From NCBI GenBank assembly GCA_005116965.1, contig SWDG01000023.1, positions 219,999 through 271,230 on the forward strand: 51,232 nucleotides of DNA, in the 5' to 3' direction. Shown here piece by piece: positions 42,905 to 50,805 of the stretch. The first letter of the stretch is position 1. Every line of letters starts with the position of its first letter. Made by a program: the position numbers and the translations under genes. The notes under the pieces are model-generated. The model was not told the origin of the DNA, did not search any database, and saw only the letters and a list, made by a program, of their open reading frames with translations. This DNA comes from Nitrospira sp. Lineage in GTDB: Bacteria; Nitrospirota; Nitrospiria; Nitrospirales; Nitrospiraceae.

Positions 42905-44008
42905 CTACTGCAATTCAGGCACATACGGTGTGAGGTGCCTTCGGAGTGTATCCAGCTCCGGATATTTTTCAAGATTGCGCCTGACGTAGCTCAAGACGCG
43001 AGGGATATCAGCTAAGAATTTCGAGTTGCCTTTGACCCGATCAATGTAGACAAACCGGCCGGCCGCCTTCAGATTGCGCTGAATACTCGTCAGATCAAAC
43101 AGCCGTCGAAACGCGGCACGATTGGTCCAGACGAAGCGCTGTTCAGCCAGCTGATCGAGGTAGTACCCCACCAAATCGTCAACAAGGGCTTCATCGAGTC
43201 GAATGTAGGCATCCCGTAAGAGTGAGGCCAGATCGTAGGTTGCCGGTCCCATCAACGCATCCTGGAAGTCGATCACGCCGAGCCGCAACCCATCAACCAT
43301 CAAATTGCGAGAGTGATAATCACGATGCGTAAAGACGCGCGGTTGCCCGGCGAGGAGTTCCGCGATTCCTTCGAACTCCCGTCTGATTGCCGTGGCGTCC
43401 TTCTCAGGCAACGGGCTGCCGCGACGCGCCACAATTCCATACTCAAGGAAATGATCGAACTCCCACATCAGCAAGGGCACATCGAAACTGCGGTGAAACG
43501 CCAGGCACCCAGGATCAGCCGGTGTCGTGGCGTTGACCTGCATCTGCACCAGGATATTGATGGCCTGTTTGTACCGTGACTCCACGCTCGGCGCATCCGC
43601 CTGACTGACGGCCTCCGCCAAGGTCACATCTCCGAAATCTTCCAGATAGAGCAGCCCTGCGGATTGATCATAGTAGTGGAGTACAGGCACCGGCACCTTT
43701 GCTTTAGCCAGATGCGACATGATGTTGATGAACGGCAGTTCAGCGATCTGATGAATACCCCCACTGACCGCCTCTTCAGACTGTTTGAAACCTTCAGGCT
43801 CAGCCAACTGCATCACGATCACAGCATGTGGTGGCCCGCCGGAAACGGTGGCTCGATAGTAGCGCCGATTGGAGGCATCGCCAGCCAATGGCGACAGCGC
43901 CTTTAAGACGAGGCCGGGAGAAAGACGAGTCTCAACCGCCTGCGCGATGAGAGTTTGATCGGGAGGAGACAGGGGAATGAGGGGAGGAAGAGAATTCACA
44001 GTAGACAT
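42905..44008 (-). CDS. Phosphotransferase, AmgK-like amino-sugar kinase
   Basis: About 367 residues from the ATG at 44008; the frame is open to 44101, but the extra N-terminus is Arg-rich and unlike the family. APH-type kinase fold: HRDYHSRNLMVDGLRLGVID holds the catalytic Asp (HxDxxxxN) and the Mg-binding DFQD follows directly. The family also contains antibiotic kinases, but the pairing with a MurU-like gene points to AmgK, which phosphorylates MurNAc and GlcNAc at C1. No resistance role is implied by context. Confidence 0.85.
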   Translation of the reverse strand: MSTVNSLPPLIPLSPPDQTLIAQAVETRLSPGLVLKALSPLAGDASNRRYYRATVSGGPPHAVIVMQLAEPEGFKQSEEAVSGGIHQIAELPFINIMSHLAKAKVPVPVLHYYDQSAGLLYLEDFGDVTLAEAVSQADAPSVESRYKQAINILVQMQVNATTPADPGCLAFHRSFDVPLLMWEFDHFLEYGIVARRGSPLPEKDATAIRREFEGIAELLAGQPRVFTHRDYHSRNLMVDGLRLGVIDFQDALMGPATYDLASLLRDAYIRLDEALVDDLVGYYLDQLAEQRFVWTNRAAFRRLFDLTSIQRNLKAAGRFVYIDRVKGNSKFLADIPRVLSYVRRNLEKYPELDTLRRHLTPYVPELQ

Positions 44009-44237
44009 ACGAGTCGTATTATAACCACGAGGTCTCCGCTTGTCACGAAGACCACCGGAAAACACCTGAGAAGATCGACTGCGCGCACAGAGAACCGGCA
44101 AGGAGTTTCCCGCTCAAGATCACAAGCATTTATTCTGGGCTGCCACCCACCCCGGAGCCTCTGCGTCCTAATCACGCCGTTTCTCGCCGTTGCCCGTGGC
44201 GATGCCCACACAGGTCTAGATCTTGACGCGTGAAATA

Positions 44238-44684
44238 CTACGGAAGGATGACGCCACTCTTGGGCACGAGTTCTTCATCCTTACACACAAGAGGAGCAGT
44301 CCCAGCCATCCCCTTGCACAAATGGGCCAGCGCACCCTGTGCCCGCAAACGGGCGTCCTTGTGATACCCGGACTCGCCAGCCTCAACCGCTTCCTCCAGT
44401 TTGACGATGGCTTCTTTGGGCGCCCCGGTCTGCCGTGCCTGATCCAATGCCGCCTTGAGTTTCACCGTAGCCTTCCGATGCTGCCGGTAATCAGCGCCCC
44501 AGAACCTACCCGTCCACTCCGGCTGCTCATAGGCAGTCGATCGTTTCCCGTTGCCGGGATACGGACTCAAGTCCTTGACGGCCTCCGTGGTCAGGGTAAT
44601 GACCTCGTCGTCTGCCGCGCAGACCGGCACGAAACTTCCCAACAGCATGACGACCAATGGGATAGCCCATAAACATGATCTCAT
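44238..44684 (-). CDS. Small exported protein of unknown function
   Basis: 148 residues from the ATG at 44684, which has GGAGGAG just upstream; the frame is open to 44714. Signal peptide MRSCLWAIPLVVMLLGSFVP with cleavage near VCAADDE. Mature part has helical, Lys/Glu-rich segments (HRKATVKLKAALDQARQTGA, KEAIVKLEEAVEAGESGYHK), resembling SmbP/histidine-rich small metal-protein style only loosely. No family assigned. It stands alone between the AmgK-like gene and the chemotaxis receptor remnant. Confidence 0.75.
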   Translation of the reverse strand: MRSCLWAIPLVVMLLGSFVPVCAADDEVITLTTEAVKDLSPYPGNGKRSTAYEQPEWTGRFWGADYRQHRKATVKLKAALDQARQTGAPKEAIVKLEEAVEAGESGYHKDARLRAQGALAHLCKGMAGTAPLVCKDEELVPKSGVILP

Positions 44685-44815
44685 GATCTCCTCCGCCACA
44701 TCATGATGTGCCAAGGCAGCACGATACTGGATAACGTTGTAGACCGAGGAAGCGAGGTCGGGGGCAAGAGGATTGATGGCTTCATCCAGATTCGTACCGC
44801 CCTCTCACCCGACCG

Positions 44816-45150
44816 TTAGAACTCCTCGAATTCGGCCTCCTTGGCCCGATAATTCTTGCCGGTGCCCGTCGTGACAGCTGCCAGGTTCCTGATCTCGTCT
44901 GACGCCGTATGCCTAGCTTCCCTTACCGGTCTCTTCGCCGCCGCTTTGGAACCATTGCTATGAGTGGTCGACTTAATCGCCGAGTGCGAGACCGGCTGGC
45001 TGTTGAGCTGCTTGATCTTGAAAGCCTCCATCTGCTGCATCAGTTCCTTGGCCTGCTCCTTCATCGACTGCGCCGCCGGATGGCGCCCGTGAAGGCAAAT
45101 CCCATCATGAGTTTCGTCACGGTCTTTTGATTGCCAAACCACGTCACCAT
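44816..45150 (-). pseudogene. Methyl-accepting chemotaxis protein remnant, internal deletion
   Basis: An ATG at 45150 with GGAGGG upstream starts MVTWFGNQKTVTKLMMGFAF, the usual MCP N-terminus running into the first membrane helix, but the frame stops at 45061 after 29 residues. The C-terminal tail in another frame (ending at 44816) reads SMKEQAKELMQQMEAFKI, typical of MCP ends just after the signalling helix, then an extension ending in EFEEF. Between them the sensor, second membrane helix, HAMP and signalling domains are missing. So a receptor gene of normally about 1.6 kb is reduced to 335 bases. The frame of the tail lies off the N-terminal frame by one base. Confidence 0.8.
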
Positions 45151-45683
45151 GCTCCCTCCATAATTTGAGTCGACCACTCAAACCGATACCGTCGCTCGGC
45201 ACAACAGCGTAGCGCCGTCAGATGAGACACCGGGGAATCCCGCCCCTCAATCTATGTCCACACCCACACACTCAACAGCAAAATAAAAGACGCCGTCCCG
45301 ATGCCTTCTCACGAAAGCCAGGACTGCGCCTTCCACTCGCAGGTCTTGCTCCTGCTCGTTCAGGTGGTTTGAGCCGGCCGCTTAAACCGATAGGGATTGC
45401 CTTGCCTGATATTCAATCGGCAGAACATGGGATAACTTAAGTGAGGGAAACCCATGCACGCGACAAACCACGGAATGGTGTCGGAGATAACGCTAGCCCG
45501 TATGCCTCATGACGGTTTGTGCCCGTTGGATAAGCTCAAGGTCCCGAGCGCCGGCTAGTGGCCCACCTACAGCGATTGACGGATGAACCTGAAAGCAGCC
45601 GTGAGTCTCGCAGACGCTCAATTTCCCTAGCCTGCGAGGCTTCTCATCTCCAGCTCTCTCATCCTCGCTCAGGCTGACGGTGT
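45151..45683. other. Intergenic region with one tiny possible ORF
   Basis: 533 bases between the receptor remnant and the VanZ-like gene. I see no recognisable gene. A 34-codon frame at 45454-45558 (plus strand) has GAGGG 6 bases upstream of its ATG, reading MHATNHGMVSEITLARMPHD; it has no known family and may be chance. The remainder is non-coding. Confidence 0.45.
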
Positions 45684-46100
45684 CTATGACGTCTTATGCG
45701 GAGAGAAGCGTACCGGCTTTGCGCGCGCGACAGTAGCCTGCATGATTCGGCTGAGTCCTACCGCACCTAGTGTGGCTCCGACCGTATCGGCCAGCCAATC
45801 GAGCCAATTCGAATCTCGAAATGGAACGAACGCCTGGTGAACCTCATCGCTTACCCCATACAAGGAGGCCAGAAGGATGGCTGCCGGAATCGCTTGTTGT
45901 CTCCACACATCATGCCCACCTCGACAAAGAGCCCGGTAGCACAGCGCACCGAATACCGCATACTCGACGGCATGCAAGACTTTATCACTGAAATGCGTAA
46001 CGAACGGCACATGCTCTTCCGGATGAGCCTGCGCGGATAAATAAAAAATAATCCCAGCGTATCCGCACACCGGCCCCCAATACCGAAGAAAGGTCACCAT
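45684..46100 (-). CDS. VanZ-like family membrane protein
   Basis: 138 residues with about four membrane helices. Family signature: YLSAQAHPEEHVPFVTHFSD, then KVLHAVEYAVFGALCYRALC and LLASLYGVSDEVHQAFVPFR, ending DSNWLDWLADTVGATLGAVG. VanZ relatives are small membrane proteins of uncertain role, sometimes linked to envelope stress or antibiotic tolerance. It is divergent from the GH57 gene (99 bases), which may share its promoter region. Confidence 0.88.
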   Translation of the reverse strand: MVTFLRYWGPVCGYAGIIFYLSAQAHPEEHVPFVTHFSDKVLHAVEYAVFGALCYRALCRGGHDVWRQQAIPAAILLASLYGVSDEVHQAFVPFRDSNWLDWLADTVGATLGAVGLSRIMQATVARAKPVRFSPHKTS

Positions 46101-46199
46101 CTCAACTCCTCATGCGAGATTCCATCACAAATCCGTCTGCGGATTGCATGCTCATACCCCCTATGACATACTCGCCAAGATGAAAGGGAATCGGCATCA

Positions 46200-48401
46200 A
46201 TGAAGCATGTCCACGTATGTTTTCTGTGGCATATGCACCAGCCCTATTACACCGATCCGGTGGCCGGATCGGCCAGCATGCCATGGGTGCGCCTGCATGC
46301 GACCAAGGCCTATTACGATATGGCCTATCTGTTGGAGAAATTCCCCGGTGTCAGCGCTACGTTCAATTTTACGCCGTCCCTCCTCTTGCAGTTACAAGAG
46401 ATCGGCAGCGGAAAAATCCTCGATCTGTTTCTCGAATATGCCCAACGCCCAGCGGCCAACCTCACCCTTGAAGAAAAAGCCTTTCTGGTCCGTCATTTCT
46501 TTTCAGCTAACTGGGCAACGATGGTGCGCCCCTATCCACGATACCATGAGTTGCTGGTGAAACGCGGACTGGACGTCCCGGGGCATGATCTCCACCGCGT
46601 CGCCCGTCAATTCTCCACACAAGAGCTACTAGACCTTCAAGTCTGGCACAACCTCGCCTGGTTCGGATACGGCACCGTTCAACAATATCCTCGTCTGGCT
46701 GCGCTGCGCCAGAAAAATCGCAGCTTCACCGAGGAGGACAAGCAGGAAGTGTTGGAGTTGCAACGAATGGCCGTGCGAGAAATCGTCCCGCTATACCGAC
46801 GACTCTTGGAGCGGGAGCAAGTCGAACTGACGACGACACCCTTCTATCATCCGATTCTTCCACTGGTGATCGACACCGATATCAACCGGCGGGCCAGGCC
46901 GGACCTTCCCTTGCCCGCTCGTTTTCATGCTCCGGAAGATGCCGCAGCCCAACTGCAGCAGGCCGTCGCATTTCATCAGTCCACTTTCGGCCAGGCTCCG
47001 ACCGGCTTGTGGCCGTCCGAGGGATCGGTGTGTCCCGAGATGCTTCCTCTGATCCATCAGACCGGCCTTCGCTGGTTTGCCACAGACGAGGGCATCCTCG
47101 CACGCTCCCTGGGAATGTGCGGCCGCCCATGGCATCGGCAAGCCGCGCTCTATCAACCCTATCGCATCGGTGAACCTGAACATGCATTGACCGTACTGTT
47201 CCGTGACCGCGAGATCTCCGACGCATTCGGATTCGTCTACCACAAGACGACGCCCGAATCCGCCGCTGAGGATGTCCTGCGGCGTCTGCGGGGCATTGTC
47301 CACGATACACCGCAAGAGAAGATTATCATTCCCATCATCCTGGACGGTGAAAATCCGTGGGAACACTATCACGACGGCGGGGAGCAGTTCCTGTCTCTCC
47401 TGTACGAAGCCTTCACCAACCACGAACTGGATCACAACGGACAGGTCCTGGTCCAGGCCTCCAGCATGTCGGATGCGATGACTGCCGTGCAACCCACACA
47501 ACAGCTGCCCTGCCTGCATTCAGGCTCCTGGATCAATTCTGACTACAAGATCTGGATCGGGCACTACGAAGACAATCGCGGGTGGGATCTCCTCGGTCAT
47601 ACCCGTACACAGCTGGTGAATCTCGCACAGAGTCTTCCGCCTGACCGTGCACACGCGGCATGGCAAGAACTCTACGCCGCCGAAGGGAGCGACTGGTTCT
47701 GGTGGTACGGCGATGATTTCGATACCGACTTTAAACCCGAATTCGACCGCCTCTTCCGCACCCATCTTCGGAATGTCTGGACGCATATGGGCATCCCGCC
47801 CCCCGATCAACTGAATACTCCGATCTGCACGAGGGCCATCGCCTCCGAATCCGATTCAGTCCAACAGCCGCTCGTCCTGCTGAATCCCACAATCGACGGC
47901 ATCGTGACCGACTTTTTCGAATGGCGTGGCGCCGGAAACATCAACACCCAGCCCCCGCTTGGAGCCATGTGGAAAGCCGATGGACTCTTCACGGCGATCC
48001 AATTCGGTTGGACCTCACATCAGCTCGTGATGAGATTCGACCCAGACGACACGAGTACGACACGACAAGGCCTCGACGTTGATATTCGGTTGCAAGGGCC
48101 TCAATGTACTTTTCGGCTGACATTTGCTCTGACCTCGCCAGGCCCGGAGGCGTTTCTCTTGTCTCGCCAAACCCAGGCAGATGCCTGGGAAGAGATCGGC
48201 TCCTATCGGTCAATCAAGGCCCACGCCATTCTGGAGTTGGCCGTCCCTTGGAAAGAGCTGTGCCTGGAACAAGGACATACGATCCAGATGTCGATCATCG
48301 TGCGAGAACACGGCCTCGAAGTCGCTCGCTATCCTGGCCATCATCCGGCTGTCCTGACCGTACCTGGGCCGGAATTTGAGGCCGAACTGTGGAGAGTGTG
48401 A
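46200..48401 (+). CDS. Glycoside hydrolase family 57 enzyme
   Basis: 733 residues. N-terminal GH57 motif CFLWHMHQPYY, then the catalytic Glu274 in TGLWPSEGSVCPEMLPL, WFATDEGILARS and a probable acid/base Asp in FRDREISDAFGFVYHKTT (about 334-350). Later LDGENPWEHYHDGGEQFLSL. The C-terminal 170 residues are a beta-rich accessory domain. GH57 enzymes act on alpha-glucans such as glycogen (amylase, branching or 4-alpha-glucanotransferase types); the exact activity needs assay. It precedes a GalT-like gene by 16 bases. Confidence 0.92.
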   Translation: MKHVHVCFLWHMHQPYYTDPVAGSASMPWVRLHATKAYYDMAYLLEKFPGVSATFNFTPSLLLQLQEIGSGKILDLFLEYAQRPAANLTLEEKAFLVRHFFSANWATMVRPYPRYHELLVKRGLDVPGHDLHRVARQFSTQELLDLQVWHNLAWFGYGTVQQYPRLAALRQKNRSFTEEDKQEVLELQRMAVREIVPLYRRLLEREQVELTTTPFYHPILPLVIDTDINRRARPDLPLPARFHAPEDAAAQLQQAVAFHQSTFGQAPTGLWPSEGSVCPEMLPLIHQTGLRWFATDEGILARSLGMCGRPWHRQAALYQPYRIGEPEHALTVLFRDREISDAFGFVYHKTTPESAAEDVLRRLRGIVHDTPQEKIIIPIILDGENPWEHYHDGGEQFLSLLYEAFTNHELDHNGQVLVQASSMSDAMTAVQPTQQLPCLHSGSWINSDYKIWIGHYEDNRGWDLLGHTRTQLVNLAQSLPPDRAHAAWQELYAAEGSDWFWWYGDDFDTDFKPEFDRLFRTHLRNVWTHMGIPPPDQLNTPICTRAIASESDSVQQPLVLLNPTIDGIVTDFFEWRGAGNINTQPPLGAMWKADGLFTAIQFGWTSHQLVMRFDPDDTSTTRQGLDVDIRLQGPQCTFRLTFALTSPGPEAFLLSRQTQADAWEEIGSYRSIKAHAILELAVPWKELCLEQGHTIQMSIIVREHGLEVARYPGHHPAVLTVPGPEFEAELWRV

Positions 48402-48417
48402 TCATGGAGGAGAAGAG

Positions 48418-49422
48418 ATGCCAGATCTAAGACGTGACCCCGTTGTGGGCCGCTGGGTGATTATTTCCACTGAGCGCAGGGGTCGTCCACACGACTTTAT
48501 CAACCTCCAACCTGCCCGACCGATTTCGACGACCCTCTGTCCGTTTTGTCCGGGACAGGAACGGCTCACGCCGAAAGAAATCATGGCCTATCGGCCGCAA
48601 CCGGGCGGACCCAATTCTCCCAATTGGACCGTACGCGTCGTCCCGAATAAATTTCCTGCGCTGCAAGTTGAAGGTGACATGGGTCGCGAGGGGATCGGGC
48701 TCTACGACCGCATGAACGGCGTGGGCGCCCATGAAGTCATCATCGAAACACCCACCCATGTCGAGGGCCTCGCCGATCTTCCGATCAAGAAGATCGAGGA
48801 CGTGCTGTGGGCCTATCGAGACCGGATGATCGACCTTCGAAAAGACATTCGATTCCGCTATATTCTCATTTTCAAGAACCACGGCGCGTCCGCCGGCGCC
48901 ACCCTGGAACACAGTCATTCTCAACTCATCGCCCTGCCGATCGTCCCGACCAACGTGCAGGAGGAGCTGGACGGATGCCGCACGCACTATCAGCAGAAAG
49001 AGCGTTGCATCTACTGCGATATCCTCCGGCAGGATCTCTCGGAAGGAGATCGCATCGTCGCCGAGAATCCGGAGTTCCTCTGCGTCACACCCTTCGCGCC
49101 ACGATTTCCGTTCGAAATGTGGATCCTTCCCAAGCGTCATGCGGCGTATTTTGAGGAAAGCCAGAAATCGCAGTTCGAGTTTCTGGCCCCGATCCTTTCG
49201 GAGTCGTTGCGCCGTATGGACAAAGTGCTCGCTCGCCCCTCATACAACTTCATCCTCCACAGTTCTCCCCTTCATGAGAAAACCGGCGAGTACTACCATT
49301 GGCACCTGGAGATTATCCCCAAACTGACGCAAGTGGCCGGCTTCGAATGGGGCACCGGCTTCTACATCAATCCGGTGTCACCGGAAGAAGCCGCGACGTT
49401 CCTTCGCGAAGCAGGAGTCTAA
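48418..49422 (+). CDS. galT: Galactose-1-phosphate uridylyltransferase-like protein
   Basis: 334 residues from the ATG at 48418, with GGAGGAG upstream; the open frame reaches back into the GH57 gene. MPDLRRDPVVGRWVIISTER is the family start. Zinc ligands in CPFCPG and CIYCDIL. The nucleotidyl-transfer His lies in EHSHSQLIALPIVP, a variant of HPHGQ with Ser for both Pro and Gly. Such variants include ADP-glucose or sugar-1-phosphate transferases, so a role on glucose-1-phosphate from glycogen is plausible given the GH57 neighbour. The stop and the next gene's GTG are adjacent. Confidence 0.88.
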   Translation: MPDLRRDPVVGRWVIISTERRGRPHDFINLQPARPISTTLCPFCPGQERLTPKEIMAYRPQPGGPNSPNWTVRVVPNKFPALQVEGDMGREGIGLYDRMNGVGAHEVIIETPTHVEGLADLPIKKIEDVLWAYRDRMIDLRKDIRFRYILIFKNHGASAGATLEHSHSQLIALPIVPTNVQEELDGCRTHYQQKERCIYCDILRQDLSEGDRIVAENPEFLCVTPFAPRFPFEMWILPKRHAAYFEESQKSQFEFLAPILSESLRRMDKVLARPSYNFILHSSPLHEKTGEYYHWHLEIIPKLTQVAGFEWGTGFYINPVSPEEAATFLREAGV

Positions 49423-50805
49423 GTGCCGGCCCGCTTTCGCATCGAAGATCCCACGCTTGCGGGAGCACTGCGCAAAATTGAGCAACTCGTTCGCCGCGCC
49501 GGTGGAAGAACATGGCTGGTCGGCGGCTCAGTCCGTGATCTCGTGCTCGGTCAACAGCCACGGGATTTGGACCTCGAAGTGACGGGTCTGCCGCCCGGCC
49601 AAGTCCATGCACTGCTGACTGAGCACTTCTCTGTGCAATTCGTTGGAAAAACATTCGCGGTCTTCAAGCTGCAAGGCCTGCCGATCGATGTGTCCATTCC
49701 CTCCCGCATGCGCACTGACGACACCTCCCTCCCCGGCGTGCTGAGACAAGCCGACCCCAACATGCCGATTGATGAGGCGTTGGCACGACGAGACTTCACC
49801 ATCAACGCAATGGCCTGGGATCCCGACACCATGGAGCTTCGCGATCCCTTCAACGGTCGCGACGACCTCGATGCACGGATCTTGCGCCACGCGTCGAACC
49901 GATTCGCCGAAGATCCTCTACGCGTCTTGCGTGGCATGCAGCTGACCGCCCGTTTTGAGCTCACGGTCGCGCCGGAAACCGTGGCCCTGTGCCAGACACT
50001 TTCCCAGGAAGATCACCCAAGCGAGCGTCTGTGGGAAGAATGGAAGAAGCTGCTCCTGCAAGGACGCAAGCCATCGCTGGGATTGCAGTTCTTACGTCAC
50101 TGCGGCTGGCTCCGTTTCTATCCGGAGCTCGCAGCCCTTGAAGGCTGTCCACAAGATCCCATCTGGCACCCAGAAGGCGACGTCTGGATCCACACACTCC
50201 ACTGCCTAGACTGGTTCGCTATGGAGCGCACCGGTGATGAGCCGGATGACCTGGCCGTTGGGTTGGGTGTCCTCTGCCACGACTTCGGCAAACCAGCCAC
50301 GACCAAAGAAGAATATGGACACGTCACCTCGCGAGGACATGAATCGGAAGGGGCAGGCCCGACACAACGTTTTCTTGAGCGATTGACCAACCAGCACAGC
50401 CTGATCGAGGAGGTGGTCCCACTGGTATGTTGCCATCTTCGTCCTCGTGCCCTGCATGACGCCAACGCTTCGGACAGCGCAGTCCGCCGATTGGCAAGGC
50501 ACGTCAAGCGCATCGACCGATTGGTGCGTGTGGCGAGGGCTGATCACGCAGGACGCCCGCCGAAACAGTTTGATGGATTTCCCGCCGGTGAGTGGCTGTT
50601 GGCCAAAGCACGCCAGCTGGAAGTGGACCGTCAGACGCCTTCTCCCATTATCATGGGCCGTCACTTGTTGGAATTGGGAATCCAGCCGGGTCCTGACATG
50701 GGCCGACTGCTTGATGACTGTTATGAGGCTCAGCTTGATGGAGAGTTTGGAACACTCGAAGATGGCTTGATCTACGCGAAGAACAAACACTCCGCGCTGT
50801 GCTAG
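49423..50805 (+). CDS. CCA-adding enzyme or poly(A) polymerase family with HD domain
   Basis: 460 residues from a GTG directly after the galT stop. Class II nucleotidyltransferase signature TWLVGGSVRDLVLGQQPRDL with DLDLEV, then DEALARRDFTINAMAWDPDT and the RNA-binding neck ARILRHASNRFAEDPLRVLR. A C-terminal HD domain (LGVLCHDFGKPATTKEEYGH) indicates phosphohydrolase activity, as in E. coli-type CCA enzymes. It either adds CCA to tRNAs or, as A-adding member, works with a CC-adding partner elsewhere; the encoded CCA ends of the two tRNAs here suggest a repair role. Confidence 0.88.
   Translation: MPARFRIEDPTLAGALRKIEQLVRRAGGRTWLVGGSVRDLVLGQQPRDLDLEVTGLPPGQVHALLTEHFSVQFVGKTFAVFKLQGLPIDVSIPSRMRTDDTSLPGVLRQADPNMPIDEALARRDFTINAMAWDPDTMELRDPFNGRDDLDARILRHASNRFAEDPLRVLRGMQLTARFELTVAPETVALCQTLSQEDHPSERLWEEWKKLLLQGRKPSLGLQFLRHCGWLRFYPELAALEGCPQDPIWHPEGDVWIHTLHCLDWFAMERTGDEPDDLAVGLGVLCHDFGKPATTKEEYGHVTSRGHESEGAGPTQRFLERLTNQHSLIEEVVPLVCCHLRPRALHDANASDSAVRRLARHVKRIDRLVRVARADHAGRPPKQFDGFPAGEWLLAKARQLEVDRQTPSPIIMGRHLLELGIQPGPDMGRLLDDCYEAQLDGEFGTLEDGLIYAKNKHSALC

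Follow-up and report, generated by a model that had tools for sequence, protein, structure and literature searches.

Between the genes of a VanZ-like protein and an APH-family kinase in a Nitrospira genome lie, on the minus strand, the two ends of a methyl-accepting chemotaxis protein (MCP) gene in different reading frames. Has a chemoreceptor truly been lost here, by what kind of event, and what did the loss leave behind? The window, that is, the whole stretch of 51,232 nt that was analysed, is G000:C5:219999-271230 in a source assembly of 3.73 Mb and 27 contigs. It was compared with the genomes of Nitrospira sp. RSF5 (G087, contig SWDO01000018.1) and Nitrospira sp. ACE_NIT9 (G004), among others. 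The pieces of the locus are the following.

42905-44101 (as the listed ORF), minus strand: APH-family kinase, the left neighbour (amgK in the initial annotation), with PF01636 on 42905-44062
44238-44714, minus strand: ORF of 158 aa with a signal-peptide-like start by eye, 98% to RSF5, no Pfam match
44754-45078, minus strand: 325 nt present in the window and missing from RSF5, in which tail and spacer were removed by a separate deletion
44816-45078, minus strand: 3' piece of the putative MCP pseudogene (signalling-region end, linker and C-terminal EFEEF; stop at 44818-44816)
45079-45150, minus strand: 5' piece of the putative MCP pseudogene, 24 codons, which agree with the beginning of the RSF5 receptor gene at 72/72 nt
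45152-45159, minus strand: ribosome-binding site GGAGGGAG, read from the sequence
45164-45184, minus strand: second palindrome GGTTTGAGTGGTCGACTCAAA, 5' of the ribosome site
45684-46100, minus strand: VanZ-like protein, the right neighbour, with PF04892

On the minus strand, GGAGGGAGC-ATG (ATG at 45150-45148) opens MVTWFGNQKTVTKLMMGFAFTGAI, and a second frame reads AAQSMKEQAKELMQQMEAFKI...EAEFEEF over 86 codons and a stop (45076-44816; the listed open frame is 44816-45202, 128 aa). As the head is identical to the RSF5 gene start throughout and the tail query matches 34 of the 79 genomes of the genus, its own included, these ends are not chance resemblances, and the claim of the initial annotation that start and tail are both kept in different frames holds. 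FEEF is the end of 18 of the 30 receptor frames listed. In its own assembly, the joined stretch has one other match at E ≤ 0.001 (65 nt of the tail, 86%) and its head has none, while a PF00015 (MCPsignal) search of the genome yielded hits on contigs C3 and C12 only and none at the window locus. The N-terminal transmembrane and sensing region is reduced to 24 codons, the remainder being present in RSF5 only. The locus thus has homologous ends in the right order, a missing middle and a broken frame. Head and tail in the window, like the 4HB-HAMP-PAS part in RSF5, resemble 4HB_MCP_1 MCPs (PF12729, PF00672, PAS, PF00015); unlike these, the window copy is a pseudogene without the sensing and signalling domains.

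Gene order in RSF5 is that of the window, with which it aligns at 97.3% DNA identity over 42906-44753 and 96.7% over 45079-50514. Between the aligned blocks, the 325 nt of tail and spacer are found in the window only and 1,382 nt of receptor body (L124:7459-8840) in RSF5 only; the two do not align. The RSF5 piece matched 4HB_MCP_1, HAMP, PAS and HAMP_2 in Pfam, and MCPsignal was not matched. The RSF5 receptor is itself broken: it is frameshifted into two frames, and its own deletion, which runs into the 158-aa ORF, removed the signalling domain and the tail. Since each genome keeps what the other lost, head, body and tail were all present in their ancestor; the two deletions arose independently of each other, after the split. 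The loss can accordingly be called recent, as had been proposed, for RSF5 retains in place the body deleted from the window, and the window retains the tail deleted from RSF5.

Comparison with RSF5 places the join at 45079/45078, within the range of 45076-45085 suggested earlier. The coding sequence lost would come to about 2 kb, counting the 1,382 nt seen in RSF5 and a signalling domain of about 200 codons read from a paralogue, in agreement with the claim of more than 1 kb. As for the proposed single internal deletion, an internal deletion fits the RSF5 comparison, and its having been one event is presumed. One detail had to be given up. GGCGC occurs twice at the join (45088-45068) and had been offered as the microhomology of the deletion; such a deletion leaves one copy, and both remain in the window. 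The RSF5 head continues GGCGCCATC-ATGG where the window reads GGCGCCATC-CGGCGGCGCAG, and an intact tail reads, for example, ACC-TCG-GCG-GCG-CAG-TCG-ATG (L079). When intact tails and the RSF5 head were compared, the homology at the join was 0-1 nt, with the ancestral tail taken from paralogues.

The third species with a receptor remnant at this site, ACE_NIT9, shares about 75% DNA identity with the window species. One of its contigs carries vanZ, a leader (described below), the tail only and the start of the 158-aa ORF, where the contig ends; another has the last third of the 158-aa ORF at its end, with the kinase adjoining. The assembly is fragmented; both pieces end inside the 158-aa ORF and may adjoin there. 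The short form in ACE_NIT9 has no head and a left break unlike that of the window, so that, in the genomes compared, the short form is not conserved as a pair of genes. The full-length orthologue that had been expected in place was not found in the 40 further neighbourhoods described below, and RSF5 and ACE_NIT9 carry other deletions. Provided that the three are one orthologous gene, a single receptor would seem to have been lost on three independent occasions. That each of the three species has its own deletion suggests that the receptor was no longer needed, and not that a short product was being preserved; relaxed selection would then be the cause of decay.

The main caution on the deletion is that this assembly breaks at receptor genes. 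A receptor on contig C4 near 189.8 kb contains a 100-N run at ~190282-190381, a 100-N run also splits CheA near residue 116, and contig C3 ends within two receptors, one of which has a 1-nt deletion near the tail. The PF00015 receptor count of the genome (two) is therefore too low. MCP domains are repetitive, and these breaks lend some substance to the idea that a full receptor is still in the genome and that its repetitive middle was skipped by the assembler. We nevertheless consider such a collapse very unlikely. The window contains no N and the join is seamless; the lost part includes the 4HB sensing region, whereas the other observed breaks lie in PAS and signalling regions; the 0-1 nt common to head and tail is too little for a false overlap; and RSF5 and ACE_NIT9 are damaged otherwise at the same locus. 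Contig C3 was also considered as the missing body of this receptor and rejected, as it has only 65 nt of tail in common with the window and then continues into a tail of its own. Both runs on C4, in the receptor (L228:3283-3382) and in cheA (L228:74-173), are exactly 100 N long and may be scaffold gaps or withheld stretches; C3 might fill the receptor gap.

Two further damaged receptors of the same genome are the following.

L192:6657-7200 (G000:C4:180656-181199): second gutted chemoreceptor, with its own leader copy
L232:5994-7901 (G000:C12:205993-207900): receptor interrupted by a TAA in frame; in RSF5 the corresponding gene is open over 636 aa

The first was gutted in like manner, with 93 head residues (96% to a receptor in G098) and 25 tail residues in another frame. 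That all receptors of the genome are dead was considered and dropped, because the two C3 receptors run off opposite ends of their contig and the C4 receptor at 189.8 kb holds the 100 N. General motility loss was ruled out: MotA, MotB, FliC and FliD are full length and 98.5-100% to RSF5, and the genome has six CheW-domain and two flagellin-domain hits, numbers shared by many relatives. With flagellar genes that look intact beside it, a receptor lost on three separate occasions would be a small, clean example of repeated receptor loss.

How the receptor came to lie at this site was assessed from the genus. The vanZ gene is present in 73 of 79 genomes, and 40 of its neighbourhoods were examined besides those of the window, RSF5 and ACE_NIT9, so that 43 of the 73 were covered. 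In 37 of the 40, vanZ and kinase adjoin without a receptor, with -22 to 288 nt between the matches. The contig of G022 stops 486 nt past vanZ, and G027 and G062 carry other genes and no receptor match after vanZ. The receptor is thus not a general resident of the vanZ-kinase site: among the species examined, the receptor unit and the 158-aa ORF stand between vanZ and kinase in three only, which makes the unit either a patchy addition or the remainder after many clean losses. We regard it as possible, though rather less than probable, that the genus had receptor and 158-aa ORF from its ancestor and that other lineages lost them cleanly, as opposed to insertion in a few lineages. The same gene order in a species as distant as ACE_NIT9 speaks for ancestral presence. 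Against it, the 37 neighbourhoods are without trace of the unit, including those of G065 and G098, whose vanZ is closer to that of the window than is that of ACE_NIT9, and many clean losses would be needed. In G027 (L039) and G062 (L235), a non-kinase gene follows vanZ and the ORFs there are related, which suggests a shared rearrangement.

The 158-aa ORF was detected in 6 of 146 genomes, the three within the genus being the window genome, RSF5 and ACE_NIT9; the matches beyond it are distant and come from three more genera in the family. Compared with ACE_NIT9, its last 54 residues are 89% identical and its first ~45 residues 52-56%, the corresponding values for the neighbours being 65% (vanZ) and 74% (kinase).

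The deletion itself would be ordinary gene decay, and the lasting interest of the locus lies in the leader RNA that it exposed. The leader was first found since DNA 5' of the dead receptor matched sites 5' of receptors in other species. Its parts in the window are as follows.

45415-45440, minus strand: sigma28-like promoter TTAAG-N15-CCGATT, read from the sequence against the consensus
45324-45387, minus strand: predicted leader RNA core, a 5' hairpin (P0) and then a hairpin (P1/P2) with conserved AGGAGNNAGNCC; 74.1 bits with covariance model R1, a score that is not independent, as this copy is among the sequences used to build R1
45280-45332, minus strand: terminator-like hairpin and T-rich run, the 5' arm overlapping the P1 3' arm

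The sigma28 consensus has a TAAA-like -35 and a CCGAT -10 element about 15 nt apart. A sigma28-like promoter with a spacing of N15-16 precedes 32 of the 36 leader copies in the genus (29 found by script, three by eye); three of the remaining four have a variant -10 and one has no promoter. The pattern was loose and chosen after viewing the copies, which makes these counts a description more than a test.

Aligned without the model (alignments A1 and A3), 18 copies form P0 and then a hairpin with invariant AGGAGNNAGNCC. RNAalifold predicted 17 pairs on A1, nine of them with double changes. In A3, 87.7% of the cells of the named structure are paired, and 9 of 19 pairs have changed on both sides, as compared with 4.2 ± 1.4 after shuffling and 2-6 when the structure was slid; the A3 value was reached in 1 of 500 shuffles, to be read as support and not as a probability, as the rows are related by descent. 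In A4 (36 copies, 33 distinct), an alignment made to fit the model, double changes are found in 11 pairs, as compared with 5.4 when shuffled; for further pair types, 19 of 500 shuffles attained the observed count. From A4 alone, RNAalifold predicted eight pairs of P1/P2 and not P0. With compensatory changes beyond chance in these alignments, the leader qualifies as a predicted structured RNA.

A lenient script assigned the GGC in the 3' arm of P1 to an alternative hairpin, with five or more T in 10 nt after it, in 26 of 37 copies (the 36 genus copies and one from G200); such a terminator-like hairpin was seen by eye in four more, and seven have none. The minimum-energy fold of the window leader (-50.6 kcal/mol, z -3.44) contains P0, P2 and the terminator, but not P1. 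The overlap of P1 and terminator is, as modelled, an attenuator geometry with predicted competition between the two.

The stretch 45440-44816 (minus strand) is very probably what remains of a transcription unit for a chemoreceptor, now dead. Its sigma28-like promoter, of the flagellar type, would have given a structured leader RNA, followed by the ribosome site and the receptor start. The intact receptor would have been 4HB-HAMP-PAS-HAMP-MCPsignal, and an internal deletion of about 2 kb would have left 24 and the last 86 codons in differing frames. It is hardly credible that the short form is instead functional, either through its tail peptide as a decoy, the EFEEF end resembling a CheR-docking pentapeptide, or as a unit maintained for the sake of the leader RNA. 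In the window and ACE_NIT9 the tail frame is open, so that a translated tail peptide is conceivable, and the leader persists in all three species with the dead receptor; but the left breaks differ and RSF5 has no tail. Moreover, two of the 64 nt of the leader core differ between window and RSF5, each of the window changes disrupting a conserved pair. This fits leader decay after receptor loss, though two changes are few. Judged from its sequence, the window receptor is a true and recent pseudogene.

Model R1, built from 18 copies, detected 36 copies in 30 of the 79 genus genomes, 18 of them new. In a draw of 395 genomes from the phylum (the genus included), 24 matched, all of them genus members except G200. 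This genome, of the same family as Nitrospira, has an R1 match at E = 9e-4; the copy has a promoter and a terminator-like hairpin and lies 5' of an MCP match. The filters of the genus and phylum searches were stricter and lose weak matches, so these counts are minima.

Downstream of the 36 genus copies on the same strand, we found an MCP gene in 27 cases, a gene of the DUF3391-HD_5 type in six and neither within 1.2 kb in three; the query proteins were Pfam-checked or listed with PF00015. Dead receptors follow four of the 27 MCP-linked leaders, namely those of the window, the gutted receptor on C4, RSF5 and ACE_NIT9. For the 18 copies outside the model, the counts were 13 (MCP), three (DUF3391-HD_5 type) and two (neither), and one of the latter two precedes a Crp-family gene. 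The leaders before DUF3391-HD_5 type genes give a hint of a c-di-GMP link. They are L205, L204, L059, L196, L198 and L207, from six genomes, and two of the genes were Pfam-checked.

No Rfam family accounts for the leader. In the window and six other loci, no leader family reached its Rfam gathering cut-off and the only match that did was a tRNA elsewhere; the best match below the cut-off was Cyano-2 (25.2 of 40 bits, E 0.013). A literature search of partial coverage, which is no proof that the RNA is unpublished, found no leader RNA for Nitrospira or chemotaxis among the entries listed, and a term search of the main text of a 2010 survey (PMC2864571) found mention of neither chemotaxis nor Nitrospir-. 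The leader appears to be a cis-regulatory RNA of an undescribed kind. Like attenuating leaders and riboswitches, it is a folded element after a promoter, here 5' of receptor and HD-domain genes, with a terminator-like hairpin that shares a strand with the closing stem; unlike them, it reaches no Rfam cut-off and was found, in these searches, almost only within one genus. C-di-GMP riboswitches often sit 5' of MCP genes. We think it probable that the leader represents an undescribed Nitrospira RNA class, in which a sigma28-driven two-hairpin RNA with a competing terminator would set the expression level of genes for chemoreceptors and HD-domain (c-di-GMP phosphodiesterase-like) proteins, and might be a riboswitch for a motility-linked signal. 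As a candidate new class of cis-regulatory RNA in nitrifiers, it would, if true, tie the flagellar sigma factor to chemoreceptor control after initiation, and the 36 copies, the model and the contexts offer a starting point for identifying its signal.

A trans-acting, sigma28-dependent small RNA that survives receptor loss, in place of a cis leader, seems unlikely to us. It would explain the promoter that the element has to itself and the terminator-like hairpin of most copies, as well as the 3 of 36 copies with neither type of gene after them. Such RNAs exist: PMC10578931 describes the sigma28-dependent, UTR-derived small RNAs UhpU, MotR, FliX and FlgO of E. coli, where, as here, the flagellar sigma factor drives a short RNA. 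In contrast to these, the Nitrospira element lies 5' of chemoreceptor genes; the comparison between them was made through Rfam only. The position of 27 of 36 copies 5' of a same-strand MCP gene, and of six before one family of HD-domain genes, argues for a cis-acting leader, as do the seven copies without a clear terminator that have nevertheless kept a receptor.

Some smaller features of the leader region were also observed. In the leader copy on C4, an otherwise nearly invariant pair has changed from G-C to A-U on both sides (2 of 33 rows). Relative to RSF5, 45416-45683 contains 15 gap positions. Window positions 45489-45553, a stretch of ~60 nt lying 5' of the leader, have 77-85% matches in G071, G086, G031, G022 and G002, with no recognised receptor after them among the ORFs listed, and may be a small interspersed repeat. 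The palindrome at 45164-45184 resembles P0, and it could pair with the P0 halves in the transcript.
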